Positions 4,699 through 40,406 of a stretch of 40,406 nt of DNA are shown in pieces. The translations under genes were made by a program, and so were the position numbers. This DNA comes from Myxococcota bacterium (GTDB lineage Bacteria; Myxococcota_A; Polyangia; HGW-17): contig JAHJMN010000094.1 of the NCBI GenBank assembly GCA_018821305.1, forward strand, positions 1 through 40,406, in the 5' to 3' direction. Each line of letters opens with the position of its first letter. The stretch's first letter is position 1. The notes beneath the pieces are model-generated. The model saw only the letters and a program-made list of their open reading frames with translations. It had not been told where the DNA came from and made no database searches.

Positions 4699-7158
4699 AT
4701 GGACCGCATTGATAAAACTGATGATGGGTTACAGTTGGATCAGCTTGAGAAAATGTCCGAGGATATTTCCCGGTTGACTATTGAAAATTCCCGCTTAAGG
4801 GAGTCAGCGGAAATTTATGAATCAAGAATTGAAGAAATGAACAGGTTACTGTCTCATCAGGCAGCCTATATTGATCTTCTCTTCGAAAGTGCTTTTGATG
4901 CACGAATGATTCTTTCCTCTCCGGACTGGAAATTTACGGCAGTAAATTCCAGACTTCTGGAAATATTCAAGGTGGATTCTAAAGCAGATTTTCTCAGGTT
5001 ATCTCCATGGGATATTTCGCCACCTTTTCAGCCCGACGGTGAAAAATCAGATATTAAAGCTCTAGAAATGATTGAGAAAGCACTTGCACAGGAGCAATGG
5101 ACATTTTCATGGATCCATAAGCGTCTAAACGGCGATTTATTCTCATCAACAGTAAAGCTTATAAAGGTTGGTGACGGTACTTCAGCTTTACTTATTGCAG
5201 ACGTCAGAGATAACACTGAACTTGAGAAAACTCATGCAGCACTCCTCGAATCCGAGAGATTGGTTGCGAGTTTGATAAAAAATATTCCGGGGTTTTTCTA
5301 CCGATGCCGGAATTCCCCTGATTGGCCTATGCTTTTTATTTCTGAGGGTTGTTTTTCAGTGACAGGCTATGTGGCTGATGATTTCATTAACGGGAGAGTC
5401 AAGTTTGGTGAATTAGTCCATCCTGATTACCGGGACACATTATGGCATTCCTGGCAGAACTCCATTGAAATGAACTTTCCTCTGGAAATTGAATACCCCA
5501 TTGTAACAAAATCTGGAAGCACAAGGTGGATTTGGGAGCGTGGCAGGAGTGTTAAAAAGAGCAAAAGAGGCCCTTGTTATCTTGAAGGGTTTATTACTGA
5601 TATAACCGAACGGAAACGGAACGAGGAAAAACTTAAACAATCGGAAGAATTCCGACAACGGATTTTTGATTCTTCCATCCTGCCCATTGTTGTAATGGAT
5701 GGTAAGTCGTACTGTTTCATTGATTGCAATGATGCTGCCGTCAAGATATATGGCTATCGTGATAAGGCTGAAACTCTTGGGAAGACTCCAGCGGATGTAT
5801 CAGCTCCGGAGCAATATGATGGTTCCCATACTGGTGAAAAAGCTACTGAATTTATTGAAAAAGCAAAACGCTTTGGTTATTCAGTTTTCGAATGGTTACA
5901 CCAGCGACCGGACGGTACCAAATGGGATGCAGAAGTGCATCTAATGTCGTTTTTTTCCAACGGAAAGCAATTACTTCAGTTTTCACTGATTGATATAACT
6001 GAAAAGAAAAAATCTGCAAAAGAGACTCTTATGCTTCAGGATCAGCTTAATCAGGCACAAAAAATGGACTCAATCGGAAGACTTGCCGGTGGTGTTGCCC
6101 ACGATTATAACAATATGCTCAGTGTAATTATTGGTTACACTGAAATGGCCATAAGCGATCTTGACGCGGACAATCCTGTCAGGGCGGATCTAGGGGAGGT
6201 TTTAAAAGCAGCCAACATGTCTTCTGAAATTACCCGCCAGTTGCTTGCTTTTGCCAGAAAACAACCCGGTATACCACAAAATATTGATTTAAATAAAACA
6301 ATTGGATCACTGGTTAAAATGCTTTCACACCTGATTGGTGAAAATATTATGCTTAACTGGATTCCGGGAAAAGATATATCAGTTGCAAGCATTGACCCTC
6401 TTCATATTGAACAAATTCTTGTGAATCTTTGTATAAATGCTCGGGACGCAATTGCGCCTTTGGGACAAGGGGCAATTACTATTAAAACCTCTCTAAGAAG
6501 AAATAACAAAAGTGTTGATACTATTGAGCCAAATGTTGATATTGATGGTTTTTTTATTGAAGTGTCAGATAACGGTGAGGGTATGGATGAAGACACGAAA
6601 AATAAAATTTTTGAACCATTTTTTACAACAAAGGGACGGGAGAAAGGTACCGGACTAGGTCTCTCAGTAGTTTATGGACTTGTTAATCAAAACAACGGCT
6701 ATATAGAGGTTCAATCTCAGCGTGGGGTTGGTACCACATTCCGACTTTTTTTCCCATGTGAAGTCTCAAATGTTTGTCAGGATATTGCTCAATTACCAGA
6801 AAAAGAGATTTTACAGATACTTATATATGATCCTTATCCATTTACCAGAAAAGTGATCCTTAAAATTCTGGAGAAATTAGGTTATCGAGCGATAGTTGTT
6901 GATTCGTTTATCTCGGCAGCTGAATGTATTTCAGACACTGATTCGATTGGGCTTATTATTGTAAATGAAGATGAGATGGATGACACTTGTGAACGAATTG
7001 TCAGAGAAATGTCTGACTTGAGAAAAATAATTATCAGTTCTGGTTTAAATGAGTGTACTAAAACCCTGCCCCCAAATGCGTTTTTACTGACCAAACCCTT
7101 CACCGTGATCGAATTTGAAGAAAAATTGAACCAGTGTCTGAGTATTAAAACTAAGTGA
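4699..7158 (+). CDS. Multi-PAS sensor histidine kinase with C-terminal pseudo-receiver
   Basis: 819 residues with no transmembrane segment, so cytosolic. The N-terminus is a coiled coil (about 10-55). Three PAS domains follow (about 60-180, 190-305, 320-435), two closing with DITE(R/K)K. Then come a HisKA dimerisation domain with the phosphorylated His at 468 (GGVAHDYNNML) and an HATPase domain (about 540-690) with N box NLCINARDA, G1 DNGEGM, F box FFTTK and G2 GTGLGLS. A receiver-like domain fills 700-815, but the phospho-acceptor is Asn756 (LIIVNEDEM) and the acidic pair is YD; the switch Ser and the Lys of LTKPF remain. The kinase should be active while the receiver cannot be phosphorylated normally. 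It lies divergent from the HDOD operon and 10 bases before a small gene it may be co-translated with. PAS ligands are unknown. Confidence 0.93.
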   Translation: MDRIDKTDDGLQLDQLEKMSEDISRLTIENSRLRESAEIYESRIEEMNRLLSHQAAYIDLLFESAFDARMILSSPDWKFTAVNSRLLEIFKVDSKADFLRLSPWDISPPFQPDGEKSDIKALEMIEKALAQEQWTFSWIHKRLNGDLFSSTVKLIKVGDGTSALLIADVRDNTELEKTHAALLESERLVASLIKNIPGFFYRCRNSPDWPMLFISEGCFSVTGYVADDFINGRVKFGELVHPDYRDTLWHSWQNSIEMNFPLEIEYPIVTKSGSTRWIWERGRSVKKSKRGPCYLEGFITDITERKRNEEKLKQSEEFRQRIFDSSILPIVVMDGKSYCFIDCNDAAVKIYGYRDKAETLGKTPADVSAPEQYDGSHTGEKATEFIEKAKRFGYSVFEWLHQRPDGTKWDAEVHLMSFFSNGKQLLQFSLIDITEKKKSAKETLMLQDQLNQAQKMDSIGRLAGGVAHDYNNMLSVIIGYTEMAISDLDADNPVRADLGEVLKAANMSSEITRQLLAFARKQPGIPQNIDLNKTIGSLVKMLSHLIGENIMLNWIPGKDISVASIDPLHIEQILVNLCINARDAIAPLGQGAITIKTSLRRNNKSVDTIEPNVDIDGFFIEVSDNGEGMDEDTKNKIFEPFFTTKGREKGTGLGLSVVYGLVNQNNGYIEVQSQRGVGTTFRLFFPCEVSNVCQDIAQLPEKEILQILIYDPYPFTRKVILKILEKLGYRAIVVDSFISAAECISDTDSIGLIIVNEDEMDDTCERIVREMSDLRKIIISSGLNECTKTLPPNAFLLTKPFTVIEFEEKLNQCLSIKTK

Positions 7159-7168
7159 GGTACTTTTT

Positions 7169-7402
7169 ATGGAGTTTATTGTCGGGATAACAAATGACAG
7201 TGAAAATAAGAAAAAATACTGGACTGAAAAAAAGGGCAGAATTTTCAACTGGCAGGTGATTGCAAGAGATCTTTCCATTGAAGAGGCGTTCAATACACAG
7301 TTGGAAATTTGCAGTATTCTGGATTGTTCTCCTGCTGCGTTATCTGAAAAAGCAAATACACGGCATGAATGGTGCGTATATTGTTTTGATTATGAAAACT
7401 GA
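7169..7402 (+). CDS. Small protein of unknown function downstream of kinase
   Basis: 77 residues. The ATG lies 10 bases after the kinase stop, and GTGAGGT overlapping that stop is a suitable ribosome site, so co-translation is likely. The sequence is mixed alpha/beta and acidic at the C-terminus (WCVYCFDYEN), with three Cys and four Trp/Tyr near the end. There is no signal peptide or membrane segment and no family was recognised. Its position suggests an accessory to the kinase, for example an inhibitor or a partner of the pseudo-receiver, but this is inference. A chance frame cannot be excluded at this length. Confidence 0.5.
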   Translation: MEFIVGITNDSENKKKYWTEKKGRIFNWQVIARDLSIEEAFNTQLEICSILDCSPAALSEKANTRHEWCVYCFDYEN

Positions 7403-7410
7403 ATCTGACT

Positions 7411-7538
7411 AATTCATTCGTGAAGGTTTTTATTAAAAATCCTGACAGGCCACTACTAGTAAATTCAACACCTTGCGGTCACTGTCCTGAGTTAAAATCG
7501 GCGAAAAGTTTGAAAAACTTTATTTCAGGACAGTGATT
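7411..7538. repeat. Dispersed composite hairpin element, copy A
   Basis: Two modules joined by a conserved linker. Module 1 is a degenerate hairpin around the loop ATTA (AGGTTTTTATTAAAAATCCT, 7424-7443) followed by CAGGCCACTA. The linker CAACACCTTGCGG is shared with the copies at 15061 and 30193. Module 2 has perfect 12-base arms, TCACTGTCCTGA and TCAGGACAGTGA, enclosing a smaller hairpin AAAGTTT-GAA-AAACTTT (7505-7521). Relative to copies B and C the second arm base is changed in both arms (C with G here, T with A there), which preserves pairing. It lies between two plus-strand kinase units. Confidence 0.8.
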
Positions 7539-7666
7539 AATTCTGCTCTGCAATTTATTTTATTCAAAATGTTCCTAATATTTCCAATTAAAATGACGAT
7601 AATATATAGAACAGCCCTTATGTTCGAGGATAATGTTTCACTTTATATTTATTTAAAGGTTTTTAA

Positions 7667-9628
7667 ATGACTGATAAATCCAAAGATAATTCAGATGGTC
7701 CAATATCAGTAACAGTTCCGATTGAATTTAATCCGGTTTTTAAAAAAGCAGAGGATGCTGTGTCAGCGTATTTCGATGACATTCGTTTTGAACCATCACT
7801 TGCTTCAATTTTTGTATCAGGGGAGAGATACCTGCTAGTACGGGCTGACTCGATTTCAAGGGAATTCACTGATCTTGTTGCGAATTTGTATAATGAGAGG
7901 GGAGCAGTTGAAGCAAATAATGTTGCAAGAGATTTGTTATTTGATTATGCTCATGCTCTTGGTAAAGCAGATGCCAAGGCATTTCATAAAAAAATGAATT
8001 TAAATGATCCGGTATCAAAATTATCCGCTGGTCCAATCCATTTTGCATATTCAGGGTGGGCTTACGTAAAAATTTTACCTGGTTGTCATCCTGTTCCCGG
8101 TGATGATTTTCTTCTTCTGTATGAGCATCCGCATTCTTTCGAAGCTGACTCTTGGATTGAAAGTGGAAAACAACCGATCAGTCCAGTTTGTGTGATGAAT
8201 GCCGGATATTCATCAGGATGGTGCGAAGAAAGCTTTTCAACTGGTCTTGTTTCGGTGGAATTGAGTTGTAGAGGCATGGGACATGAAACATGCAGTTTTG
8301 TTATGGCACCACCAGACCGCATTGAAAATTATGTTAAAGACTTAGGCTTAAGTAATAAGAGCTATATGCAGAATGCTCATATACCCCGAATCCCAGAATT
8401 CTTCCAGAGAAAGCGCAATGAGGAAGAATTGAAAGAAGAGAAGGATTTTATCAGTACGATTCTGGAGACTATCAGGAATATAGTAATTGTACTGGACAGG
8501 ACCGGGAAAATTGTAAGGGCCAACAAAGAATGTATTGAAGTGACAGGATATTCAGAATCGGAATTGATAGGCCTCAATGTGCTTCACACATTTATTCCGG
8601 TTGAGGAAAAAGATAAGGTTGTAAAAGTTTTTAAAGAGCTTTTACTTTCTGCTGATACTAACGAGTTTGAAAACCACTGGATAGTTAAGGATGGATCCAG
8701 AAGACTCATCTCCTGGAGCAATTCAATTATTCGTCGTGATGGCCAGCTGGAATATATTATTGCATCGGGGATTGATATAACAGATAAAAAAAATCTTGAA
8801 ATCCAGTTACTTAATGCTCAGAAACTTGAATCAATTGGCAGGCTTGCAGCGGGTATTGCACACGAACTCAATACTCCGGCTCAGTACATTTCGGATAATC
8901 TCAGTTTTATTAACGATTCGATTAAAGGTCTTGCAGAGTCAGTCAGATTTATTTTAAATCAGGTGGAGACTGAAAAAAGGAATTGTGTCGCTTGTACTAT
9001 CTCAGCGAAAGTGGATAAAATAATTGAGGATAATGACCTTGACTTTATTCTTGATGAGCTTCCATCATCTATAGATCAGGCCAGAGAAGGGATAGAGCGT
9101 ATATCAATTATTGTAAAAGCGATGAAGGAGTTTTCACACCCGGGTCTTTCAGAAATGGTTTTGTCTGATGTTAATCATATCATTGAAAATGCTATTATTA
9201 TTTCGCGAAATGAGTGGAAGTACGTTTCTGAGATTGAATCAATTTTAGGGGTTGAACTCCAACCATGTTTATGCCATCCTTCAAAAATAGGGCAGGTAAT
9301 TATAAATTTGATAGTCAATGCTGCCCATGCGATATCAGAGCGGTTTCAAGGTACTTCCGTGTTGAAGGGCATAATCCGCATTTCAACAGAACAGTCTGAC
9401 AAGCATGTAATAATTAAAATTGAAGATAATGGTAATGGAATTCCAGAGGATATTAAAAATCTGATATTCGATCCTTTTTTTACAACTAAAGAAGTGGGGA
9501 AAGGAACCGGTCAGGGCCTGTCTGTTTCAAGGTCAATAATTGTGGAGACACATAAAGGTGATATCAGTGTGTTCAGCAAACAGGGAGTTGGGACCACTTT
9601 TGTGATTAAGCTCCCATTTAATCAATGA
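7667..9628 (+). CDS. V4R-PAS sensor histidine kinase
   Basis: 653 residues, cytosolic. Residues about 10-135 resemble the XylR N-terminal sensor domain and 140-222 a V4R (4-vinyl reductase) small-molecule domain, with SGWCEESF.TGLVSVELSC and GHETCSFVMAPPDRIE as landmarks. A PAS domain follows (about 250-370, ending IDITDKK). The phosphorylated His is 399 within GIAHELNTPAQYISDN, and the HATPase domain ends the protein (NLIVNAAHA, DNGNGIP, FFTTKEVGKGTGQGLS). V4R domains in this arrangement bind small, often aromatic, ligands. The C-terminal half matches the kinases at 9646 and 18093 closely. Start: the ATG at 7667 with AAAGG nearby; the first residues (MTDKS) match those of the hybrid at 15324. 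No dedicated response regulator adjoins it. It is convergent with the next gene, with a 17-base gap. Confidence 0.9.
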   Translation: MTDKSKDNSDGPISVTVPIEFNPVFKKAEDAVSAYFDDIRFEPSLASIFVSGERYLLVRADSISREFTDLVANLYNERGAVEANNVARDLLFDYAHALGKADAKAFHKKMNLNDPVSKLSAGPIHFAYSGWAYVKILPGCHPVPGDDFLLLYEHPHSFEADSWIESGKQPISPVCVMNAGYSSGWCEESFSTGLVSVELSCRGMGHETCSFVMAPPDRIENYVKDLGLSNKSYMQNAHIPRIPEFFQRKRNEEELKEEKDFISTILETIRNIVIVLDRTGKIVRANKECIEVTGYSESELIGLNVLHTFIPVEEKDKVVKVFKELLLSADTNEFENHWIVKDGSRRLISWSNSIIRRDGQLEYIIASGIDITDKKNLEIQLLNAQKLESIGRLAAGIAHELNTPAQYISDNLSFINDSIKGLAESVRFILNQVETEKRNCVACTISAKVDKIIEDNDLDFILDELPSSIDQAREGIERISIIVKAMKEFSHPGLSEMVLSDVNHIIENAIIISRNEWKYVSEIESILGVELQPCLCHPSKIGQVIINLIVNAAHAISERFQGTSVLKGIIRISTEQSDKHVIIKIEDNGNGIPEDIKNLIFDPFFTTKEVGKGTGQGLSVSRSIIVETHKGDISVFSKQGVGTTFVIKLPFNQ

Positions 9629-9645
9629 AAATCTTTTAAATGAAT

Positions 9646-11388
9646 TCAGTTGGAGAAGGGAAGGGATATTTTAAATTCGCACCAGTTGCCTGGATCACTT
9701 TTAACCTCAACTTTGCCCTTGTGTCTTGAAGTAATAATTGAATATGCAATTGCAAGTCCTTGACCGCTTCCATCACCAGGCGGTTTGGTAGTGAAAAACG
9801 GATCATAGATTTTACTTATTATTTCAGAGGGGATACCGCCTCCGTTATCTTTTATTGATATTATATAAAAGTTTGTACTGTTTTCGGATTGAATTGATAT
9901 TATGCCTTTTCGCCCATCTGGACAAGAGTTGATAGATTGAACTGAATTAACAATCATGTTTATAAAGACCTGACAAAGTTCATTTGGAGCACCCATTAAA
10001 GACCCTGCCGGTTCAGAAAGATCCTGATTAATAGTGCAATTGTACTTCCATTCGTTTTTTGTAATGGTAATTGCATCGTCAAGAATTCTGCCAATGTCAA
10101 TAATTCGGTCTTCCATTTGAGATTCAGGGTGAGCAAACTGCTTCATTGCTTTTACAATTGTGCTTATTTTATTGATGCCATCAAGGGATTGACCGAGAGC
10201 CTCAGGGATTTCTGACAGGAGGTAACTGACATCAAATTGATTTTTAAGGGCTTCAATTCGATCCAATATGTTGTTCAGTTCGTCCTTTTTTTCACTTATA
10301 AGTGTGTCTCCTTGAGAAATATAATCGGTGAGATCTTTAAAACTGGATTTTAAAAACTCCAGATTATCCTGAATGTACTGACTTGGAGTGTTCAATTCAT
10401 GAGCAATTCCAGATGCGAGTTGACCAATCGCTTCGAGTTTTTGCTTATTCAGGGCAAGGTGCTCAAGTGCTTTTTGAGACGAAATATCAAGGAAAATATA
10501 GCCACAAAGATCTGAATTTCCAAAGAAGTCACATTTATGTGAAATGATCACTGGAACTTTAGTATGGTCGGGCAGAACAATGAATGATTCTTCGAGTTCT
10601 GATTCTTTTTCCTGATTCTGTGAGTATCTGCCTGTTGAAGTAAAATGAAGGAAATCATTAATTGTTCTTGAATAAGCATCAGTCTTGCTGATTTTAAAAA
10701 TGTTCTCTACAATTGAATTTATATAGACAATATTGGATGAGGATTTTTCATAGACAATCATTCCAATCTGGAACAAAGAACTTATGTACTTTGCGAACTT
10801 ATCTTTTTTTACCAGAAAATCATAATTTTGCTCAAGTTCACGAGTTCTGGCCTGTAGTTCCTGGGTTCTAAGCCGAACCTTTTCTTCAAGTTGATTATTC
10901 AGTTCATCAAGTTGATTTAACGCTTCCCATGATCGGAGAGCCGCAATAAGGGAAGTAATAAGTCTCTGAGCTGAAAGTTCTGTTTTCTCACGATAGTCAT
11001 TAATGTCGTAATTGATCATTACGCTGTTTTCCGGTGCTTCTCCCGGTTGACCAGTTCTTAATATTATCCTCACAAGTTGGTTATTTGCAGTTGTCCGGAT
11101 CCAGTTTACAAGGTCAAGTCCTGCATGGGAATGCTCCATGACCACATCAAGGAAGATGACTGCAATATCTGGATTTTGGGTCAGTATTTCTTCTGCCTGA
11201 GAACCGGAGTAAGCATGAAGAAATTCCAGAGTGCGGCCTTTATAGGAAAATGATTTTAGAACAAGTTCTGTAACCGTATGGACCTGTGGGTCATCATCCA
11301 CTAGAAGTACAATCCATGGTACAAAAGTGGTGTCAATCTTTTCGTCCGATTCCTCTTCAAATACAATAAAATCATCATCATCACTCAT
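9646..11388 (-). CDS. REC-PAS hybrid sensor histidine kinase
   Basis: 580 residues. An acidic N-terminal tail (DDDDFIVFEEESDE) precedes a receiver at about 20-155 with VDDDP, the phospho-acceptor in IFLDVVME and Lys in YREKTELS. This receiver is of the kind found with DUF3369-type proteins (RTGQPGEAPE, YDINDYREKTEL). A coiled coil (about 160-195), a PAS-like domain (about 200-310) and the DHp/ATPase pair follow, with His330 in GIAHELNTPSQYIQDN and the G2 box GDGSGQGLA. The receiver-first layout implies that it receives phosphate or a signal from another kinase before using its own catalytic core. It starts 4 bases after the SSS-kinase stop with AGGAG inside that gene's end, so the two form one operon and may act in sequence. 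Confidence 0.9.
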   Translation of the reverse strand: MSDDDDFIVFEEESDEKIDTTFVPWIVLLVDDDPQVHTVTELVLKSFSYKGRTLEFLHAYSGSQAEEILTQNPDIAVIFLDVVMEHSHAGLDLVNWIRTTANNQLVRIILRTGQPGEAPENSVMINYDINDYREKTELSAQRLITSLIAALRSWEALNQLDELNNQLEEKVRLRTQELQARTRELEQNYDFLVKKDKFAKYISSLFQIGMIVYEKSSSNIVYINSIVENIFKISKTDAYSRTINDFLHFTSTGRYSQNQEKESELEESFIVLPDHTKVPVIISHKCDFFGNSDLCGYIFLDISSQKALEHLALNKQKLEAIGQLASGIAHELNTPSQYIQDNLEFLKSSFKDLTDYISQGDTLISEKKDELNNILDRIEALKNQFDVSYLLSEIPEALGQSLDGINKISTIVKAMKQFAHPESQMEDRIIDIGRILDDAITITKNEWKYNCTINQDLSEPAGSLMGAPNELCQVFINMIVNSVQSINSCPDGRKGIISIQSENSTNFYIISIKDNGGGIPSEIISKIYDPFFTTKPPGDGSGQGLAIAYSIITSRHKGKVEVKSDPGNWCEFKISLPFSN

Positions 11389-11391
11389 AAT

Positions 11392-14300
11392 TTAATCTCC
11401 TGCATATTCCATTTTAGGGCTGAAAAGGATTCGGAATTCAGTTCCACCTTCGGGCGGACATGAAAAATCCAGAGTTCCTTTGAGTTTTCCTGTGATAAGG
11501 TTGTAGACTATCGCAAGCCCAAGACCACTTCCACCTTCTCCTCGTCTGGTTGTGAAAAACGGGTCGAAGATTTTTCGATGAATTTCATCAGGGATTCCTG
11601 AACCGTCATCCTTAACAAAAATTAACAGTTCCGAATTCTCTATTAACGAAAAAATTTCCACAGTCCCATCCTTCTTATGATCAAATCCATGGATAATTGC
11701 ATTCATAATGAGATTAGAGAGGATCTGATATATTGCTCCGGCGTCAGCTGTAATAAAGATATTTTTATCCACTTTATTTAAGACACTGTGCCCAGCTTTT
11801 TTAAATTGAGGGCGTAGACTGATGATTATACTGTCCACGTATTCTGCCAGATTGAATCTGCGCTCTTCTGAGATGCTCTGATCAACAGCGATTTTTTTAA
11901 ACCCATTGATCAGTCTCGCGGCATTTTCCAGATTCGTTATCAGTATCTCTACAGTTTCACGAATTTCATTAATGAAATCTGTTATTTCGCTCTTCCTGAT
12001 TTTTCCCGATTCTAGAAGAGAAGAAAAATTGGCCTCAAGTCCAGATAAAAATGTGATTGCAGTAATGCTAACTCCGACAGGTGTGTTGATTTCATGAGCA
12101 ACTCCGGCAACAAGATCCCCGAGGGCTGCCATTTTTTCTTTTTCAATAAGTCGGTTTTGAGTTGAAGTAAGATCTTCAAGTAATTTTTCAAGTTGTTCAG
12201 TTCGTTCCAATACTTTCGCTTCAAGGTTTTTATTCAGGATTTCCAACTGTTCGCGATATTCTTCTATTTTTGTTATGTCAACAATAATCCCTCTGTAACC
12301 ATCTCCAGATTCCATCCGAGTACAGTACATAAGCCCTTTTAAAGAGCCCGAGATCTGGCTTATTGAAACAGTGGCCGGGCCAGGGATACTTAAATTGTTT
12401 TCGGGGTTGTCTTTATTGGCCGTCCCAGTATCCATATCTATAAAATCATAAATATTTCCGGAAATAAACGGATCATTGACCGAGAAATTGAATACAAGTC
12501 GGCCATGTCTATTTAAAAACAGGAAATCACCGTTTTCATCAATCTCAAATACTACCTGAGGTAATAATTCCGTTAGGTTATAAAACCGGGTTGTTGATTC
12601 TTTAAGTTTCGCCTCAATTTGAAGCCTGGTAGCGACTTCATCATTAAGTTCTTTGATTTTTACCTCCATCAATTCCGAATTTTTTTTGAGAATTTCCTCT
12701 TTTTCTTCTAGATAATTTATTTTTCGAAACATTTCCTCTGGATTATCCGCCATTCTAAGGACTATTTCTCGGTATAAAATTTTCAGTTCTTCTTTTTCAC
12801 CATCGGAAAGGAAGACTTTCATTGGAGCGATTTTTTGGGAAACAGCACTACCTACTCGGAGTGAAATCTGTTTTTGTACTTCCTTTATAAGTTCGAACCA
12901 TTTTCTTGAGGAAATGAACTCCTTATTCTGTGTTCCAGTATTAACCAGTGTGTATCGAATTATTTCAGTCAATTCCTTTTCGTCAAATTGGATTTTTAGT
13001 ACGGCTCTTATTTTTTCTGTTTTTTCCTTCACTGACAGGTTTTCCACATTTCTCGCAAATGAAAGCAATTCCTGAGAGTTGTTGTAGTCCTGAGTAATTC
13101 TTTCAGGAAAGATTTTGGATAAAATTATTATTACTCCCCCATTAAAAAATAGCGACCAAAACAGGAAATTAGTAAGTGGTTCGAGAGATGTCCCAAAAAG
13201 ACTCTCAGGTTTAAAAATGCCCATTCCTAAAGGCCCTGAGGTAAGGATGTCACCAGATAACCAACCGGATCTGATTATTGCCGGGACTAACATAGTCCAT
13301 GCCCATACAGTAAATCCGAGTAAAAGCCCTGAGATAACAATAAAAGGCTGTTTTCGTCCGGTTAGAGTTGTGAAAATTACGCCAGGAGAAAATTGAATAA
13401 CTGCTGCAAAACTGATTATACCCATTTTGACAAGTACATGGGAGTTTCCCAGTATTTGATCAAATAGAAGCCCCCCGGATAGAATTAAAACAGCAGCAAG
13501 CCAACGGGAAGATAGGAGGTACTTGTGCCCCTGGTTACTCTTTCCGGAGATGACCAACGGGAAGACCAGATTATTTGAGACCATGACGCTTAACGTTACC
13601 GTGGAAACAATAAGCATCGCAAAAGCGGCACTCATTCCACCGAGAAAGACAATCATTGCAAGACTATTTGAATTTTTAACAAGAGGAACTAAAAGAGTAT
13701 AACTATCTGCTTTGGAAAGAGGAATGCCAAGATTGAAGCCAGCTGTAGCAATAATCGGAATAGCAAGAGAAATAAGGAACATGTAAACAACAAACCAGAC
13801 TACAGCTTTACGAAATCCATCGGTTTTCAGTTTTGTCATTACAAGTACTGTAAATTGCCTTGGAAGAAACACTATTGCAGACATTGAAAGCACCATTAAA
13901 ACTGTGAAATTTTCAGCATTCATTCCTGAAGAAGGTTGAGAATGTAGAGTGTTGAAGTCATTAACAAAAACCGATGGTTTTCCAAATACTGCAAATAATG
14001 CCCATATTGCAAGGAATAATAGAACTGCAAGTTTTACTATCGAAAAAAGGACAATTGAGAAAACAAATCCTTTTTCGCCTTCTTTCCCTGAAAGAGATCT
14101 GTGCGCAAAAAATATAGTGAAAATTCCAGCAAATAAAACCGTCATAATAGCCGAGTATAATGAGTATCCTCTACTCCCGGTTAATTCAACAAAAGATTGA
14201 GATACAGCCTTTATTTGTAGAGCAGTATATGGAATGATCCCAACACAAGCCAAAATTGTAATTACTGCGCCAGCATGACCTGTGCCCCCGAAAGTAAAAT

Positions 14301-14613
14301 CAGCATAATCCCCGAATGTTCTCAGATTATTCTTCTGACAGACAGATCGCATTTTTGAGATAAAAGGAAAAAACGCCATTAATGCAACACTGGGTCCGAT
14401 GTAGAATGCTAGCCAGGTATAAGTGTTTTTTGCGGCAAGCCCTATGCAGCCGTAAAATGTCCAAGCGGTAGCATAAATTCCTAATAAAAGTGCAAGAATA
14501 ACAGGCATCTTTAAAATTCGATCACTATTTTTCATTTCAATGTAAAATGCGGCGAAGAAGACTATAGATAAGAAAAAAATTGCAATAATAGAAGCCTGCA
14601 AAGGACCGATCAT
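11392..14613 (-). CDS. SSS symporter-fused sensor histidine kinase (CbrA-like)
   Basis: 1073 residues. The first roughly 475 form a sodium:solute symporter (SSS/PutP) domain with about 13 membrane segments. A cytosolic helical linker, perhaps a STAC domain, spans about 500-630. A coiled coil and a PAS domain (about 650-770) lead to the DHp domain with His840 (GVAHEINTPVG) and an HATPase domain (NLIMNAIIHGF, DDGSGIPDE, FFTTRRGEGGSGLGLA). In known relatives such as CbrA the transporter part binds or carries a nutrient such as an amino acid, coupling uptake to phosphorylation. Here the solute is unknown. The ATG overlaps the stop of the small membrane protein upstream (ATGA), and the REC-PAS kinase follows directly, forming a three-gene operon. 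Confidence 0.93.
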   Translation of the reverse strand: MIGPLQASIIAIFFLSIVFFAAFYIEMKNSDRILKMPVILALLLGIYATAWTFYGCIGLAAKNTYTWLAFYIGPSVALMAFFPFISKMRSVCQKNNLRTFGDYADFTFGGTGHAGAVITILACVGIIPYTALQIKAVSQSFVELTGSRGYSLYSAIMTVLFAGIFTIFFAHRSLSGKEGEKGFVFSIVLFSIVKLAVLLFLAIWALFAVFGKPSVFVNDFNTLHSQPSSGMNAENFTVLMVLSMSAIVFLPRQFTVLVMTKLKTDGFRKAVVWFVVYMFLISLAIPIIATAGFNLGIPLSKADSYTLLVPLVKNSNSLAMIVFLGGMSAAFAMLIVSTVTLSVMVSNNLVFPLVISGKSNQGHKYLLSSRWLAAVLILSGGLLFDQILGNSHVLVKMGIISFAAVIQFSPGVIFTTLTGRKQPFIVISGLLLGFTVWAWTMLVPAIIRSGWLSGDILTSGPLGMGIFKPESLFGTSLEPLTNFLFWSLFFNGGVIIILSKIFPERITQDYNNSQELLSFARNVENLSVKEKTEKIRAVLKIQFDEKELTEIIRYTLVNTGTQNKEFISSRKWFELIKEVQKQISLRVGSAVSQKIAPMKVFLSDGEKEELKILYREIVLRMADNPEEMFRKINYLEEKEEILKKNSELMEVKIKELNDEVATRLQIEAKLKESTTRFYNLTELLPQVVFEIDENGDFLFLNRHGRLVFNFSVNDPFISGNIYDFIDMDTGTANKDNPENNLSIPGPATVSISQISGSLKGLMYCTRMESGDGYRGIIVDITKIEEYREQLEILNKNLEAKVLERTEQLEKLLEDLTSTQNRLIEKEKMAALGDLVAGVAHEINTPVGVSITAITFLSGLEANFSSLLESGKIRKSEITDFINEIRETVEILITNLENAARLINGFKKIAVDQSISEERRFNLAEYVDSIIISLRPQFKKAGHSVLNKVDKNIFITADAGAIYQILSNLIMNAIIHGFDHKKDGTVEIFSLIENSELLIFVKDDGSGIPDEIHRKIFDPFFTTRRGEGGSGLGLAIVYNLITGKLKGTLDFSCPPEGGTEFRILFSPKMEYAGD

Positions 14614-14804
14614 TTTTTGCCTGCCTTGTTTTCCATTATAAAAGACAGAAGTATTAGAAATCCCCAGAAAATAAGAATAAAAGCAAGTCCATTAAAAGGA
14701 GTGAGATTTTTAAAAGATGTAGAAACAGGCCATGAACATAAGAAAAACAGGGCCGTTCCCAAAATAATCAAGATATCTTTGTTTAGTTTATTCTTTTTTT
14801 GCAT
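14610..14804 (-). CDS. Small two-helix membrane protein, symporter partner
   Basis: Start chosen at the ATG at 14804, preceded by AAAGGGAC at good spacing, giving 64 residues; an in-frame ATG at 14834 would add ten polar residues. Two hydrophobic helices are evident (ILIILGTALFFLCSWPVSTS and GLAFILIFWGFLILLSFIM), flanked by Lys-rich ends. SSS-family transporters are often encoded after a small membrane protein (for example DUF4212 or DUF3311 types); this gene's ATGA overlap with the SSS-kinase gene fits that pattern. The likely role is as an accessory subunit in folding or sensing. The exact family was not recognised. Confidence 0.75.
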   Translation of the reverse strand: MQKKNKLNKDILIILGTALFFLCSWPVSTSFKNLTPFNGLAFILIFWGFLILLSFIMENKAGKK

Positions 14805-14888
14805 GTTTGTGTCCCTTTTGTATCTATCGGACAAACAGAAAGAAAACTTAAAACAAAAAAAGGAGATAAGTAGAATAAAACAAGAGGT

Positions 14889-14951
14889 GGGTGTTCCGGA
14901 TCTGAGAAGTTAAAAGCATTCTGCAGAAATGGATGGTTTCCCGGAACACCC
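14889..14951. repeat. Inverted repeat with 11-base arms
   Basis: GGGTGTTCCGG and its exact reverse complement are separated by 41 bases, upstream of the small membrane protein gene. It could be the binding site of a dimeric regulator with looping, or a transcribed hairpin. The arms share TGTCCGG/TGTTCCGG-like content with the nearby dispersed element but are not the same sequence. Confidence 0.65.
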
Positions 14952-15060
14952 GGAGTCATTACTTAACCGTTCAGGAAAAAAAAGCAATAGTAAAAAGTGT
15001 GAATAAAGAAATATTCTGGATTGCAGACAAATAAAACATCAAAAGCCTTTTTTCGATATT

Positions 15061-15192
15061 TAGTTCGTGTCCGGATAGAATTTTATTAAAAATTCTATCC
15101 GGACACTATTAATATTTTCAACACCTTGCGGTTACTGTCCTGAGCAAAAAATCGACGAAAAATTTGGTTTCCGGTATTTCAGGACAGTAACT
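15061..15192. repeat. Dispersed composite hairpin element, copy B
   Basis: The best-preserved copy. Module 1 is a perfect 18-base-pair stem with loop ATTA (15067-15084 with 15089-15106, arm GTGTCCGGATAGAATTTT). The linker TTTTCAACACCTTGCGG follows. Module 2 has perfect 12-base arms TTACTGTCCTGA and TCAGGACAGTAA around a 37-base loop containing ATCGACGAAAAA. The left flank TTAGTTCGTGTCC is shared with the copy at 30193. The copy lies about 130 bases before the hybrid kinase start, as copy A does before its kinase. Confidence 0.88.
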
Positions 15193-15323
15193 ATTCGGCA
15201 TATGACTTGAAAGAGTGCAGCATTCAAAAAAAAATAAAAAAGGGGTTGAAATTTTATTTTTACTGCGCATAAAGAACGATACTAAAAATATTTTTTGTTT
15301 TTAAGCAGGACAAGGAAGATACA

Positions 15324-16874
15324 ATGACCGACAAATCAGACAATTCCCGTTCAGATACTCTGGTAACCATAGTCAGAGACGGTGAAAAACTCACTGTTCC
15401 GCACATCGAACCTCAAAATCTGGAAAAAATAATGGAGGGCAGGGAATCAATCATGTTTGTTGCCGACCCTGCGGGAAAGATAAGATTTTGCAGCAGGACG
15501 TTTTCTGCAATAACCAACATCTTAGCAGGGGATTCAAGTGATATATTATTCGGAACTCTTCTGACCCGGCAGGCCCGCTGTCGGGTTTATGACGGTTATC
15601 AGGAAATTATCGAAACTGATTTTGTCGTTAATAATTCAATTGTTACACTGCTTATTACCCTGCTGCCTTTTGAAACGAACGATGAAATTCATCTTCTAGG
15701 AATTGGAAAAGACCTCACTGAAAAGCGGAAGCTCGAGCAATTGAACCGTGAGTATGAACGTCTGTGGGATCTGGCTACCCTTGCAGGGAAACTTGCTCAC
15801 GAACTGAATAATCCATTATCATACATGCTTTACAATATGGATGTATTGGGTAAGGAAATCCCCAATGTGATTGAGATTGCCCAGTCTGTTGGTTCGGGTA
15901 ATCTTAAAGTATTGGAAACAATTCCTTTTGCGCTATCGGACAGTCTTTTAGGGTTAAACCAGATAAAAGAAACGGTTCAAAGCCTGAGTATGTATTCTCA
16001 TTTTGGAAAAGAAACTTCTCTGGCGGTAAATGTCAATTATATAATTGATATGGCTCTCACAATGGCCCGGCCTGATCTGAAATACCGCATGAAAGTGGTA
16101 CGGCAATACGGTAGTCAGAAGTTGGTTTCAGGTGCCGAGGGTCAACTGTATCATATTTTTTTGAATCTCATTCTTTTTGCTTCCCGACAGGTTCCCGAAG
16201 GCAATGCCAAATCAAATATCCTGATCGTCGAGAGCAGCGACCTTGATTATTTCGTAAGTCTTAGTGTTTCTTTTCCCTTTACGACAGAAACAGAGATTTT
16301 AGAAGAATTACTTTTTAATCCCCTATCAGTATTTAATACTTCGCACAGAATAAACACTCCAGCCCTGAGTGCTTTTCTTCTGGAAAAATCCGGAGGTAAA
16401 CTCAAGTTCAACGTGGTGGAAAACAGGGGAGTTTTTACGGTTCTTCTTCCGGAATACAGGGATAAAAAAGCCAGGGTTATGACTCATGAGTTCTGCAGTC
16501 CTGAAGGTTTAAAAATGCGAATTCTTGTGGTTGATGATAATCCTGCAATAAGAAACCTGTTCGAAAAGATGCTGGAAAACTGCATTATCACCACATGTGA
16601 ATCAGGTGAATCTGCGCTCAAGTTACTTGAAAGCGGGAATGTATTTGACCTTGTGGTTTGTGACGTTCTGATGCCGGAAATGAATGGAAAAGAACTTCAT
16701 GAGCGTGTCTCAGGTAAGTATCCGGGGCTTGGGAGCCGATTCATAATGGTTTCCGGGGGGTTATTTTCACCGGAAATCCACGAATATATATATAAACTTG
16801 GGATTCCCCTCCTGGAAAAACCTCTGGAAGTTGAAAAATTGAAAAAAATGATCCTTGAAACGGTTATGCGTTGA
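15324..16874 (+). CDS. Hybrid sensor protein with degenerate ATPase and intact receiver
   Basis: 516 residues, cytosolic. A PAS-like domain fills about 35-135 (ADPAGKIRFCSRTF, LGIGKDLTEKRK). The DHp helix keeps His159 in KLAHELNNPLSYM. The ATPase domain is eroded: the N box reads FLNLILFASR, with Phe where the ATP-binding Asn belongs, and the G1 DxGxG, F and G2 boxes are missing, though the last strand (GVFTVLLPE) remains. A complete receiver follows (398-512) with VDDNP, Asp447 in VVCDVLMPEM, Ser in MVSGG and Lys in LLEKPL. It probably cannot phosphorylate itself, but could accept phosphate on His159 or Asp447 from another kinase, perhaps in a heterodimer. Ribosome site AAGGAAG precedes the ATG. 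It is convergent with the REC-HDOD gene, 19 bases apart. Confidence 0.88.
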   Translation: MTDKSDNSRSDTLVTIVRDGEKLTVPHIEPQNLEKIMEGRESIMFVADPAGKIRFCSRTFSAITNILAGDSSDILFGTLLTRQARCRVYDGYQEIIETDFVVNNSIVTLLITLLPFETNDEIHLLGIGKDLTEKRKLEQLNREYERLWDLATLAGKLAHELNNPLSYMLYNMDVLGKEIPNVIEIAQSVGSGNLKVLETIPFALSDSLLGLNQIKETVQSLSMYSHFGKETSLAVNVNYIIDMALTMARPDLKYRMKVVRQYGSQKLVSGAEGQLYHIFLNLILFASRQVPEGNAKSNILIVESSDLDYFVSLSVSFPFTTETEILEELLFNPLSVFNTSHRINTPALSAFLLEKSGGKLKFNVVENRGVFTVLLPEYRDKKARVMTHEFCSPEGLKMRILVVDDNPAIRNLFEKMLENCIITTCESGESALKLLESGNVFDLVVCDVLMPEMNGKELHERVSGKYPGLGSRFIMVSGGLFSPEIHEYIYKLGIPLLEKPLEVEKLKKMILETVMR

Positions 16875-28918: not shown

Positions 28919-28937
28919 TGTCCTGAATTTCAGGACA
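28919..28937. repeat. Short TGTCCTGA palindrome between gap and pgk
   Basis: TGTCCTGA and TCAGGACA form a perfect 8-base-pair stem around ATT, followed by CGAATTT. It carries the same core as the composite elements at 7411, 15061 and 30193, whose module-2 arms contain CTGTCCTGA and TCAGGACAG. No T run follows, so it is not a typical terminator. It could act as an mRNA processing or stabilising hairpin. Confidence 0.7.
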
Positions 28938-28987
28938 CGAATTTACTCTTTCTAACTATTACCTTTTTTTCGGAAAGGTTCATACAA

Positions 28988-30169
28988 ATGAGCATACTTT
29001 CAATCAAAGAACTTCCCATTGCAGGGAAAAAAGTATTCATCCGTGTGGATTTCAACGTCCCATTGAAGGACAGCAAAGTTACAGATTCAACGAGAATTGA
29101 TGCTGCTCTGCCCACAATCAGATTCGCTCTGGAAAAAGGTGCAAAAGTTATTTTAGCTTCTCACCTCGGGCGTCCCAAAGGAAAACCGGATCCAAAATAT
29201 TCCATGGAACCCGTTGGGGCCGTTTTAGCGGAAAAACTCGGAATGGATATCATTCTTGCGGACGCACCAGTGGGTGATGGCCCCTTCAAACTCGCCAATG
29301 AGCTTAAAGACGGTCAGGTTCTCCTTTTAGAAAACCTCCGCTGGCATCCGGGTGAGGAAGGAAACGACGAATCTTTTTCAAAAGCTCTCGCTTCCATGGC
29401 TGATGTTTATGTAAACGACGCTTTCGGAACAGCTCACCGGGCTCATGCTTCCACCGCAGGGATGATTCCCCACGTTGAAGAAGCTGGTGCCGGTTTCCTC
29501 ATGGAAAAAGAAGTTAAGTTCTTCGAGAAACTTCTCAGTGCCCCGGAAAAACCCTTTGTGGCAATCCTCGGTGGTGCAAAAGTATCTGACAAAGTTGGTG
29601 TTATTAAAAACCTCATGAATCTCGTTGATAAAATCCTTATCGGCGGAGCCATGGCCAATACCTTCCTTGCCGCTCAGGGACATCACCTCGGAAACAGCAA
29701 AATCGAAGAAGATAAGCTCAATCTTTGCCGCGAACTCATTGATGGCGCCAAAGCACGTAACATTGAACTCATTCTTCCTGTTGATCTCAAATACGCAAAC
29801 AGCCTCGATGCAACCGAGACAACAACCGTTGCCGTAATCAAGGGCGTACCTTCTGATCAGATGGCCCTCGATATCGGGCCTGAATCTGCAAAAATCTTTG
29901 CAAAAGCCCTGTCCGATGCCCAGACTATTTTCTGGAACGGCCCCATGGGTGTTTTTGAAAATCCCGTTTTAGCAGAAGGCACTATGGCTGTTGCAAAAGC
30001 CGTTGCCGACAACAAAGGCATCACCGTAATCGGCGGTGGTGACAGTGTTGCCGCAATCAACAAAGCAGGCCTTTCTGATAAAATCAGCCACATTTCCACC
30101 GGTGGTGGTGCTTCCCTCGAAATGATGGAAGGCATCTCACTTCCCGGACTTGTTGCCCTTGCCCGCTGA
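28988..30169 (+). CDS. pgk: Phosphoglycerate kinase
   Basis: 393 residues, normal length. Landmarks: [78 protein letters not shown] and the final [30 protein letters not shown]. It transfers phosphate between 1,3-bisphosphoglycerate and ADP to make ATP. Ribosome site GAAAGG precedes the ATG. It follows gap after 77 bases and precedes tpiA after a 266-base spacer that holds a dispersed hairpin element. The C-ending codon preference matches that of gap. Confidence 0.98.
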
Positions 30170-30192: not shown

Positions 30193-30410
30193 TAGTTAGT
30201 TCGTGTCCTGTAATTCGCTTCGCGAAGGATTTTATTAAAAATCCTAACAGGCCACTAGTAATATTTTTAACACCTTGCGGTTACTGTCTAAAACGTATTT
30301 CCGAAGGAAATCGTCAAAGACGACAACTGTTTTCTTTGAAAACAGTGAGAGTCCCTAGCAAAAAAATCGACGTTATTTTTGAAAAATCGTATTTCAGGAC
30401 AGTAACTAGT
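30193..30410. repeat. Dispersed composite hairpin element, copy C, expanded
   Basis: Module 1 has outer arms GTGTCCTGT and ACAGGCCAC (one mismatch) and an inner perfect 8-base stem AGGATTTT-ATTA-AAAATCCT (30226-30245). The linker AACACCTTGCGG follows. Module 2 arms TTACTGTC (30281-30288) and GACAGTAA (30398-30405) enclose an enlarged loop. In it lie three successive perfect hairpins with three-base loops: ATTTCC-GAA-GGAAAT (30297), TCGTC-AAA-GACGA (30311) and ACTGTTTTC-TTT-GAAAACAGT (30326). The element sits between pgk and tpiA, within the presumed glycolytic transcript. Confidence 0.85.
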
Positions 30411-30435
30411 CAAAATTGAACCTCAGGAGAATAAA

Positions 30436-31212
30436 ATGGCAAGAACATTCCATATATACGGAAACTGGAAACTTAATAAAAACGCATCTGAGTCTGCTCA
30501 GTTAGCCCTTGAAACCGCTCAAGCTGCCGCCGTTACAAACGGAAAAGTTAAAGTAGCAGTAGCGCCGGTTTTCACTAATATTACTACCGTTAGAAGTGCC
30601 CTTGGCAGCACTTCCCATGTAAATCTCCTTGCCCAGAACGGTTATCCGAAGGCAAGTGGCGCTTTTACGGGAGAAGTATCATTTGCGCTCCTTAAGGACG
30701 CAGGATGTGACGGGGTTATCATTGGACACAGCGAAAGACGACAGATTTTTGGCGAAACAAATGAATTCATCGCCGATAAAGTTCAAGCTGCTGCGGAGAT
30801 CGGACTTCAGGTCGTACTTTGCTGCGGTGAAACTCTCGATGAGAGAGAAGCAGGCAAAACCTGGGAAATCGTTGAAAAACAGTTAACTGTTGGTCTTTCA
30901 AAACTTCCGGAAAACCTCCGCTCTTCCGTTATAATCGCTTATGAACCCGTATGGGCTATCGGTACAGGAAAAACAGCTTCTCCGGATCAGGCACAGGAAA
31001 TTCATGCCCTTATCCGCAAACTTCTGGGCACATTATGGACCCCCAGTCAGGCCGCAGAAGTTATTATCCAGTACGGTGGCAGTGTTAATGAGAGTAACGC
31101 TCTGGAACTTTTCCGCAAGGAAGACATTGATGGAGCTTTAGTTGGTGGTGCTGCCCTCAAAGTTGACAGTTTTTCAAAAATCATCCAGGCTGCTTTCGAA
31201 GTAAGTCAATGA
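30436..31212 (+). CDS. tpiA: Triosephosphate isomerase
   Basis: 258 residues. Substrate Lys in GNWKLNK, catalytic His in IIGHSERR and catalytic Glu in AYEPVWAIGTG are all present, along with the phosphate-binding YGGSVNESNA and GALVGGAAL. It interconverts dihydroxyacetone phosphate and glyceraldehyde 3-phosphate. Ribosome site AGGAGA precedes the ATG by 7 bases. Its stop overlaps the start of tadA (ATGA), so the tRNA-modifying enzyme downstream is co-translated with this glycolytic gene. Confidence 0.98.
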   Translation: MARTFHIYGNWKLNKNASESAQLALETAQAAAVTNGKVKVAVAPVFTNITTVRSALGSTSHVNLLAQNGYPKASGAFTGEVSFALLKDAGCDGVIIGHSERRQIFGETNEFIADKVQAAAEIGLQVVLCCGETLDEREAGKTWEIVEKQLTVGLSKLPENLRSSVIIAYEPVWAIGTGKTASPDQAQEIHALIRKLLGTLWTPSQAAEVIIQYGGSVNESNALELFRKEDIDGALVGGAALKVDSFSKIIQAAFEVSQ

Positions 31213-33558: not shown

Positions 33559-36500
33559 TCACTCTACTACGAGGACTCGGTCGCCGGTGGAGCGGCCGAA
33601 GGTTTCCGGGTGGTACATTTCTTCAGCTTTTGCCGGGGGAACTACGAAGTTACCGGGGGTCGTTGCTTTTGCGGTATATTCGAAGGTATGAACTCCAGCG
33701 CTCAGGAGGGACGCAAAGGCTTCCACTCTCTCATCACGGATGTTGTGGTGATCATACCAGCGTCCCCACATGCGCCACCACCAACGATAAGAACGATAAT
33801 AACCGCGGCCACCTCTGTAGCGGCTTCCGTAGCCGTAGGTGGATTTTCCCTGAGTTGCACTGGCGGGAGGGGCCCCGAGAAGTCTGGCATTTTCCGCTTC
33901 AAGACCCGCGGGAATTGCATCCACGAGGGCAACGTGATAGCGACGGGCAGGGGCGAGCATGGATAGTTTTACTTTAACCCGGGCACCAGCTTTGATTACC
34001 CAGGTTCCGTCGGGACGTCGCTGGACGTCTTTGGGATCACCCACGGCGGTATAGTGACGGGACACGGTAAATCCGTGACTTGCGGCGGGGGGGCGCAGGT
34101 CGCTCAGAGCATAATCCATGGCAATACGGTAATAGAGGCGGCCCGCACCTTCTTTGGAAAGGAGCAGTTTGCTTACTTTGCCCGGGTTGCCGAGATCCAG
34201 CATGGGGATTTTTACGAGATGACGTTCCGTTGTACGACCGATAAATTTATGGTCGCCGGCATAGCGCTCGCCAAGCCACATGCGGGAAACGAAGTTCGGT
34301 GTAACTTTTTCGTAGGTGTTAAAGTATTGATCAAGAGCCAGAAGGACCCACACACTTTCCTGAGTGTTTGCCCAGCGTCCTTTTGTTTTGTGAGCTAAAA
34401 GTCCACTGACTACTTTCGTAATGAGGTCGCTTTTTGGCTGGTCGATGATCATGGCGCTGAGTAAAAGTGCATCCACTCGGCGGTTTGAATGCAGAATCAG
34501 GTGTGCTCCGTCTGCGGCGTAGGTGATGAAGTTCGCATTACCCGCGGTCTCCGTCACACGATTCAGGAGAAGTTTCCGGATTTTTTCAAGATGGTATTTG
34601 TCTTTAGCCGCAGCAAAAACAGGATAAATCCAGCCAATACCTTCAAGATAGGGTTGCTTCTGGATAGCAAAATGCGGATAGAGTTTCTTCGCAGCAGCAA
34701 CATCCACATCCTTATTAAGGTTACGTACATAAATACTGTAAGCCTTCAGGTAGCGTTTTACCCATTCGGGATATGTTGAAGGTATGTGATTTTCAATATA
34801 ACGCAGGTAACTCATGGCTCTGGATAAAACATTTGCATTTACGGCATAACCCTTTTCTTTAGCACGTAAGAAGGCGTGAGCTACGTGGATAGTTAAAAAC
34901 GGCCAGCTTTCCTGTCCGCGAATCCAGAAACCGAATCCACCATCGTAGTTCTGCATGTTTGCAAGTTTTGTGAGATCCCGGGCCATGGCCGCTTCGATAG
35001 CATCCTTTGCGGGAAGTCCTGCCGCCTGAAACGCTGTAAGAACATCCCGGAGAGCTGCGATGGAAAGAATACGGGAAGCGAGCTGTTCAGCGCATTCATA
35101 CGGATATGAGTACAAGTAGAGAACTGCATCCGTGAGAGCCTGAAGTTGGGTGGAGGAGGTCTGAACATTGAGACCGCCGAATTCCATTACGACGTTACCG
35201 GGTACCTGCACCGGTTGAATGATGGCACCTTTGTCGATAGTCCCGTAGGTTGCAAAGCCTTCTGTTGTTGCGGGAGTCCAGACAGGAAGGGAGAAGGATG
35301 CAGCGTCCTGACCTTCGCCACTGACAGCTACAGCTTCGAATTTAGCTGTACCGGGCATATCCGTTGCAACATCAAAGCGCAGCTCACGACGATCTCCAGC
35401 GGGGACGGTTATTTTGAGGCCTTTGGGGCCTTTAAAACGCACGTTGTAGCCGCGGATAGCGACTTTAACATCCTGGGGTGAGCCCGTCTGGTTCTGAACG
35501 ACTATGGGCAGTTCAAAACGGTCACCGAAGTTAAGGAAGCGGGGCGGCGATTGTCTGAGTTGCAAAGGAAGTCTTGCGGTGACGTTGGTTTCGCTCATTC
35601 CGTATTTTGTGGCACCAGCTACGGTAACGGCCATGAGACGATAACGGGTCAGGTTATCCGGGAGTTTGAGTTCAACGGAAGCTTTTCCTTCTGCATCGGT
35701 TTTTACTTCCGGGGCAAAAAGCGCAAGTGCATCGAAATTAGTGCGTATTTCAATAGCGGGACCCTTTTGAGTATTGTCTTCATCCCGACTGTTTCTGGCC
35801 TTTCTCGGGGCTTTCTTCATTTTTGAACGCTCAGGCTTGGCTCCGGGGGCATCATCCATCTTATCAACGGACATTGCACTTCTCGGTGCGGGTGCAGCTG
35901 TTTCTGCGGCGAAGTTTTTCAAACCTTTACTTCCAAATCTTCCGCCGAGACCGCCACCACCACCGATTCCAATACCACCAGTTCTGGAGTCCTTTGAAAG
36001 CGCCTGCTGTTTTGCTTCGAATTCTTCAGCTAATTTGACGGGATCATCAAGTTGAATCATTTCGCGAAGCCACCGGGATGCCACGTATTCAATGCGCGAA
36101 GGGTGGAAAGAATTAAGTGGATTACTGAGTTTGTATCCTGTGAGGGCTAAAACTGCCTCATCAACGGCCACAAGGGCGATTTCCGCATCGGGAACGGGCT
36201 TGCCCTGATAATCCAGAACCTGAAGGTTAACAACGGTTTTTCCCCCGGGTTTGAGCTGCGAAGATACGGGCATTATTCTCAATTCAAGCTTTCTCGAATC
36301 AAGAGAAACGGGGAGATGGATGGTTCCACCGGCATACGCAGGGCGGGCAGGAGCATTTTTAACGGGAAGCCCTGCATTATCCATTCTGGCCGATGCACCG
36401 GTCAATTCCACCTGTACCTGGGTTCCCGGCATGTGCTCTTCCGTGAGTGGAACCTTAATGACCGCCGTTGGTGACGTCATGGTGAAACGCTGGGGTTTAT

Positions 36501-39780: not shown

Positions 39781-40406
39781 GGAAAAACCTCCTGATGAAA
39801 AAAAAATAAAACTGTATCTGATGGCCACCCATAGTACATTAAAATAAAATAAGTAACAAAAGAAAAAAGTTGCTGGACTCCTGTATGAGTTATCCGAATA
39901 AATCAAAGGTCACTTTATACGCGGGAGTGATCATTTCCTGTCTCACATTTTTTGCAGGGCAGTTCGAGTAGTGTGTTCGAATTGAATTTCAGGACACGAA
40001 ACATTTACAAGACAAAGGCTCAGGTTAAAGATCCTGCTTGTCTGATCCTGCTGCTGATTACCTGTGCCCTGATTGTTTTTAACAGGAAGACAGGGAATCA
40101 GGAAACAGGCAGGCAATTTCGCGCAGCGGAATGCAAGCAGGCAGGTTCAGATCGTAACCATTTAACATCAATGTAAAATTACAAAAATGGAAAAAATATT
40201 CACTTTTGGGATTTCGATCCTTTTATTTCGTTAATGTCCTGTAATACCAAGTTTTCAAGTTTAGGCAAAATTTCTGCACAGGACATTAAGAATGAAGGTC
40301 GCTATCGGCATCTGCTACGCAGTTGCCTGTCGCCTCCGCGCTTCGCTACGCGAGAGCGCTATGCTTGAAATTATTGTAGTGTTCTGAATAGCATGTTTTC
40401 GTAAAC
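39781..40406. other. Upstream region of the macroglobulin gene and window end
   Basis: 626 bases with no supportable gene. The first 150 are AT-rich and should hold the macroglobulin promoter; no specific one could be assigned. A TTTCAGGACACGAAAC half-site of the dispersed element is at 39987-40002. CCTG-rich sequence at 40030-40115 resembles that beside the hexamer array in inverted orientation. The full palindrome at 40231-40289 and a GC-rich hairpin-like stretch near 40335-40362 (CGCGCTTCGC, GCGAGAGCGC) follow. Confidence 0.5.
40231..40289. repeat. TGTCCTG palindrome near the right edge
   Basis: TTAATGTCCTGT (40231-40242) and ACAGGACATTAA (40278-40289) are perfect 12-base arms around a 35-base AT-rich loop. 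The core TGTCCTG/CAGGACA is that of the dispersed hairpin family, but the linker CAACACCTTGCGG is missing, so it represents a reduced version. Confidence 0.75.

Follow-up and report, generated by a model that had tools for sequence, protein, structure and literature searches.

Background

The MITEs of prokaryotes (Correia, ERIC, Chunjie and others) are usually recognised as small, non-coding, intergenic elements with terminal repeats, target duplications and the ends of a resident insertion sequence (IS) (PMC10969869). Judged by its sequence, the dispersed repeat described in the current report is a MITE by these features; it shares with the known examples its short length, high copy number, terminal inverted repeats and stem-loop potential. 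It differs from them in having a sequence of its own, a 6-bp TAnnTA duplication and an ISNCY-type partner, and in being composed of two palindromic modules with related forms of 60, 153 and 207 bp. A MITE family linked to an ISNCY-type transposase is a pairing that we did not find in the literature searched, which was covered in part; the MITE in PMC11448079 is assigned to ISL3.

The IS of the ISNCY family (NCBIfam ISNCY_1), such as the ISRm17-like elements of Sinorhizobium, Microvirga and Marinobacter, appear to have inward-facing ends of a similar GT...TCC form, whereas the MITE has no gene and the resident transposase scores below the cut-off of the family model. REP and BIME elements with RAYT (PMC2817692, PMC3733652) also occur as many intergenic palindromes in one genome, but the MITE has target duplications, DDE-type ends and a larger unit. 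Hairpins maintained by template switching (PMC8794818) resemble the MITE in multi-base, apparently one-step changes that make the arms exactly complementary (here in copy B and the L104 insert); those hairpins were described for RNA genes, whereas the present ones belong to a transposon. The element is a non-autonomous DNA transposon and constitutes a new family within a known class of mobile DNA; it is not a novel RNA. It is ordinary in kind, and its remaining interest lies in its copy number, its modular build and the footprints of arm correction.

Three copies in the window

The preliminary description concerned the window, by which we mean the whole stretch of 40,406 nucleotides that was analysed, and the three intergenic copies that it recognised (here A, B and C) are present essentially where it placed them (Table 1). 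Their two-hairpin plan is exactly as described, with an ATTA-loop hairpin (module 1), a AACACCTTGCGG linker and a second hairpin with the arms GTTACTGTCCTGA and TCAGGACAGTAAC (module 2), and the double change from C-G to T-A in the module-2 arms is equally exact. The short length of copy B results from the rewriting of its module 1 into a perfect 18-bp palindrome (GTGTCCGGATAGAATTTT / AAAATTCTATCCGGACAC); this stem is a private rearrangement and not the state of the family. The "nested stem" attributed to copy C is in part the ~62-bp insert in its module 2, which is bordered by GTC on both sides (30286-30288 and 30351-30353) and recurs at the same position in other copies. Copy A retains an intact module 2 in the C-G variant, GGTCACTGTCC/GGACAGTGA.

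Table 1. Positions of MITE copies, MITE fragments and flanking hexamers in the window
Feature	Position	Strand	Remarks
Copy A, 142-bp MITE family	7410..7537	+	old, degenerate, decayed; left end lost
Copy B, left flanking hexamer (target duplication)	15057..15062	+	TATTTA
Copy B, 142-bp MITE family	15063..15191	+	129 bp long
Copy B, right flanking hexamer	15192..15197	+	TATTCG; 4/6 identical to left TATTTA
Left-end fragment	28924..28941	-	18/18 identical to positions 2-19 of 153-bp family
Copy C, left target duplication	30193..30198	+	TAGTTA
Copy C, MITE of 207-bp subfamily	30199..30406	+	in spacer between pgk (28988-30169) and tpiA (30436-31212)
Copy C, internal hairpin insert (TAAAACGTATTTCC...AAAACAGTGAGA)	30289..30350	+	~62 bp, in module 2
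Copy C, right target duplication	30407..30412	+	TAGTCA; 5/6 identical to left TAGTTA
Left-end fragment	39978..40000	-	21/21 identical to positions 2-22 of 153-bp family
Member of sister 153-bp MITE family	40230..40406	-	matches at 40230-40297 and 40365-40406; interrupted, truncated by contig end

At 4699-16874, genes for histidine kinases and response regulators are clustered (PAS, HATPase_c and Response_reg domains), and copies A and B lie a short way upstream of two of them (7667 and 15324). Elsewhere in the window, the minus strand at 33559-39906 encodes a 2115-aa bacterial alpha-2-macroglobulin-like protein (A2M, MG2, bMG10 and bait region).

Copy number and distribution

The common unit, as derived from 72 copies, is 142 bp long and reads GTTCGTGTCCTGTAATTCGCTTCGCGAAGGATTTTATTAAAAATCCTAACAGGCCACTAGTAATATTTTCAACACCTTGCGGTTACTGTCCTGAGCAAAAAATCGGCGAAAAATTTGATTTTCGGTATTTCAGGACAGTAAC, shown here with one of three module-1 haplotypes. 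It begins with GTTCGTGTCCTG and ends with CAGGACAGTAAC, terminal inverted repeats that are complementary at 10 of 12 positions. The linker motif AACACCTTGCGGTNACTGTC, with up to three mismatches allowed, is matched 271 times in the 5.22-Mb genome and the reversed pattern once, which excludes chance. A second element, 153 bp long, has the ends and duplications of the 142-bp family and a different internal sequence; its own motif is matched 161 times. The MITE comprises forms of 142, 153, 207 and ~60 bp that have no coding capacity, and from match counts multiplied by lengths the 142-bp and 153-bp families make up about 1.2% of the genome. Many contigs end inside MITEs or inside the IS described below, for example C24, C32, C58, C78, C95, C118, C182 and C170, as does the window itself at 40365-40406. 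The assembly is therefore broken by these elements, which probably explain many of the genome's contig breaks, and the true copy numbers are probably higher.

ORFs longer than 100 codons contain 84% of random points but none of 111 copies, and the orientation of the genes that flank the copies is that of the background. Scans of 59 relatives, of which one belongs to the same genus and six to the same family, gave background counts of the motif only, and the same-genus genome lacks the element between pgk and tpiA. Among the genomes compared, one per species, the amplification is restricted to a single species as far as is visible. A search of a plasmid collection with copy B gave no matches. 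Scanning of named genomes, where records of the present genome may be missing, and of viral contigs gave at least three isolated occurrences of the exact motif. These lie in a Microbacteriaceae MAG, in a planctomycete MAG and on a viral contig, each time with no other part of the element nearby, and are probably due to chance; the match in L146 falls within an ORF.

Target duplications and empty sites

Inward-facing ends were paired in 1.89 Mb, about a third of the genome, and the structural statistics given here cover that part. Exact 6-bp direct repeats flank 39 of the 68 copies of 138-146 bp, whereas 1000 shuffles of the right flanks gave 5.2 on average and never more than 13, and 17 of 36 elements in the 153-bp class have the same kind of duplication. 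Repeats of other lengths (3, 4, 5, 7 bp and longer) are exact in 0-2 cases. The target is mostly TAnnTA (TAAATA, TAATTA, TAACTA, TACATA, TAGATA and others), and because of this bias the inner two bases of the hexamer provide the fair test; they agree in 51 of 68 copies, against 10.9 on average and at most 21 after shuffling.

The joined flanks of filled sites align with uninterrupted paralogous sequence elsewhere in the genome, and these empty sites have the hexamer once. For the 153-bp element at L206:5747-5899, the empty copy in L170 (98% identical over 141 bp) has one TAAATA and the filled site has two; for the 142-bp element at L225:11800-11941, TATTGA is single in the empty sites of L174 and L093 and doubled in the filled one. 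The empty sites sit in other dispersed repeats, which are ~75-98% alike and present in many copies (flanks of L206:5747-5899, L225:11800-11941 and L066:7266-7405).

Transposition of single strands by Y1 enzymes makes no target duplication. The duplications and empty sites therefore bear directly on the proposal of a REP- or BIME-type element with a RAYT (Y1) enzyme as its mover, for which the high-copy intergenic palindromes and the presence of three Y1 (PF01797) genes in the genome might be cited. The ends of the MITE are, in addition, identical to those of a DDE insertion sequence. We regard this proposal as exceedingly improbable, and a Y1/RAYT enzyme as the mover is ruled out by the target duplications. 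The earlier characterisation of the repeat as "REP/MITE-like" is consequently upheld in its MITE half, by the terminal inverted repeats, the 6-bp duplications, the empty sites and a resident IS with the same ends, and falls in its REP/RAYT half.

The Y1 genes themselves lie in L122 (1480-1918), L121 and L123, and nothing was seen that links them to the MITE ends. A second family of palindromes, with the core GCGCCGCCnnnGGCGGCGC, occurs 12 times in 1.9 Mb (L064:11887-11905, L066:7718-7736, L074:18833-18851, L091, L097, L098, L179, L186 and others); its outer arms vary in sequence (ccccttcaggt, cccctgttttat, ccccttttact and so on) and are perfectly complementary for 8-19 further bases. Similar palindromes flank the Y1/RAYT-like gene in L122 (at about 1921-1978 and 2330-2393), so that this second family may represent the true REP elements of the genome.

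A resident insertion sequence with the ends of the MITE

A search of the genome with the NCBIfam model ISNCY_1 detected one gene, in C216 (L120), with a whole reading frame (87-1436) of 450 aa. The product scores 294 bits with ISNCY_1, by far its best family, against a curated cut-off of 325, and matches Pfam PF01609 (DDE_Tnp_1) above the cut-off (E 6e-13). By inspection, DDE-type residues are found in the motifs RMDSTT (from 148), AGDRGF (from 353) and VEGNISHLKR (from 405). Downstream of the gene, the right end of the IS reads TATTTCAGGACAGTAAC and is followed by TATTTA. C216 does not include the left end, GTTCGTGTCCTGAAAT, which is found at six other contig ends, where the reading is TATTTA or TAACTA followed by GTTCGTGTCCTGAAATTAAG...; these six contigs overlap the first 76-84 bases of C216 at 100%. 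The IS is thus a multicopy element of ~1.7 kb (about 1.68 kb) that was collapsed by the assembly, its ends being read from separate contigs.

The ends of the IS and the MITE are identical on the left and on the right and have the same asymmetry, with GTTCG... on the left and GTTAC... on the right when read inward (CG/AC). The likeness is limited to these 14-17-bp ends, which means that the MITE is not a simple internal deletion of a present IS copy. Relatives of the transposase on plasmids of Sinorhizobium, Microvirga and Marinobacter, annotated as ISNCY, are 27-31% identical over 90-99% of the length; the distant relative on the Marinobacter plasmid has the end GTGCCCATCC with TAGCTA on both sides, and the Microvirga relative has the end GTTTCCGTCC and flanks that are not identical. 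A short-peptide search of named genomes with the C216 transposase detected no relatives.

We consider it very probable that the repeat is a MITE whose ends are recognised and mobilised by the DDE transposase of this resident ISNCY-type IS. The enzyme would recognise GTTCGTGTCCTG and CAGGACAGTAAC and insert the element at TAnnTA sites with the duplication of 6 bp, and the MITE was probably moved in trans by the product of the C216 gene. It is possible that a further transposase with these ends escaped detection. That the mover was another DDE transposase whose ends were similar, since lost or unassembled, might also be suggested by the 153-bp family, which prefers a right end (GGACATTAAC) that is slightly unlike that of the IS, and by the existence of diverged IS remnants (92% identical in C154 and 87% in C116). 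Against this alternative, one intact multicopy transposase is present whose asymmetric ends are exactly those of the MITE, and the GGACAGTAAC and GGACATTAAC ends occur in both the 142-bp and the 153-bp families; we judge it to be unlikely.

Origins of the compensatory changes

In the alignment of 72 copies, the two-hairpin structure is 96.6% paired and outperforms slid versions of itself; both sides have changed in 7 of the 33 pairs, and there are 93 double-change cells compared with 34.5 in shuffles. The preliminary description had read such changes as evidence of selection on RNA or cruciform structure. The covariation does exceed that of the shuffles, but five of the seven co-varying pairs track a few shared variants: pairs 11-52, 13-50, 30-46 and 32-44 define the three module-1 haplotypes, which are freely combined with variants of the linker, and pair 85-143 is the C-G variant of copy A, common to four aligned copies. 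The other two are doubles in single copies (L064 and L088).

The rare states of pairs, also 93 in number, are mostly broken by a single change (78 cases); a further 7 are changes to G-T, 2 are broken doubles and 6 are compensated doubles, four of which are one shared variant. The compensated doubles exceed the independent expectation of about 0.3. Rare substitutions per site amount to 1.0% in the module-1 stem and 1.5% in the module-2 stem, compared with 0.8% in the unpaired part of module 1, 1.3% in the module-2 loop and 2.0% in the linker, so that the stems are no more conserved than the unpaired parts after insertion. This pattern indicates that single insertions decay without visible constraint on pairing and argues against per-site selection on an RNA or cruciform.

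The same observations weigh on the possibility that the repeat is a structured RNA or an mRNA-processing element whose fold is under selection and whose dispersal is secondary. The pairing and double-change figures would agree with such a function, as would the strong folding of copy B relative to shuffles (z -8.1, with z -3.4 for copy C and z -2.5 for copy A) and the location of copy C in the pgk-tpiA spacer, on the same strand. Against it are the predominance of pair-breaking changes, the similar rates of rare substitution in stems and unpaired parts, the lack of any Rfam family at gathering score in the window, and the absence of the element from the same-genus spacer and from all relatives. 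We find such a function highly improbable, and RNA function as the main explanation is rejected on the mutation patterns.

The covariation is real and stems mainly from the three module-1 haplotypes, modular recombination and apparent template-switch corrections such as that in copy B. Template switching at quasi-palindromes is known to yield arm-complementing changes (PMC8794818). In copy B, the left arm exactly complements the right one over 18 bp and the usual asymmetric segment is lost; in L104, four consecutive substitutions change GACGACAACTGTTTTC to GACTCTCACTGTTTTC, which complements the opposite arm exactly. Both look like the result of copying from arm to arm in a single step. Within the MITE reading, template switching at quasi-palindromes, together with recombination among copies, would have given rise to most of the compensatory changes. 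That complementarity is maintained by mutation, through template switching between the arms in replication or transposition intermediates, and not by selection is a suggestion that we make tentatively and that may well prove wrong. If it is true, this MITE population of more than 400 copies in one genome would be a natural record of quasi-palindrome correction giving rise to false "RNA covariation". Compensatory changes in dispersed hairpins, the usual mark of a functional RNA, can have origins in selfish elements, by way of source haplotypes, recombination and arm-to-arm copying, and might be read with this warning in mind.

Modular build and related forms

In each palindromic module an end sequence is joined to an inverted copy of itself, partial or complete, and for this reason the element resembles two hairpins. 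The left end and a degenerate inverted copy of it make up module 1. In module 2 the inner arm repeats the right terminal repeat in inverted orientation, so that this module matches a 60-bp element in size and shape. Within 1.9 Mb, seven elements of 60-62 bp combine both ends with near-identical hexamers at their flanks. The hexamers of the 60-bp size class as a whole are not above the shuffled control, since most such pairs of ends are module 2 inside a larger copy, and an independent mobility of these small elements is only suggested. In the 207-bp subfamily, of which copy C is a member, the ~62-bp hairpin insert always occupies one position within module 2, and L107:9090-9241 joins the left part of a 153-bp element to the module 2 of the 142-bp family. 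The compound element may have arisen by the joining of such units.

Some copies have a GC-rich segment (ATAGCGCTCTCGCGCAGCGAAGCGCGGAAGCG...) inserted at their linker (L071, minus strand, near 16300; L192:19116-19248), and the same segment occupies 40298-40364 of the window, near the equivalent relative place in the 153-bp copy; it is perhaps another nested element.
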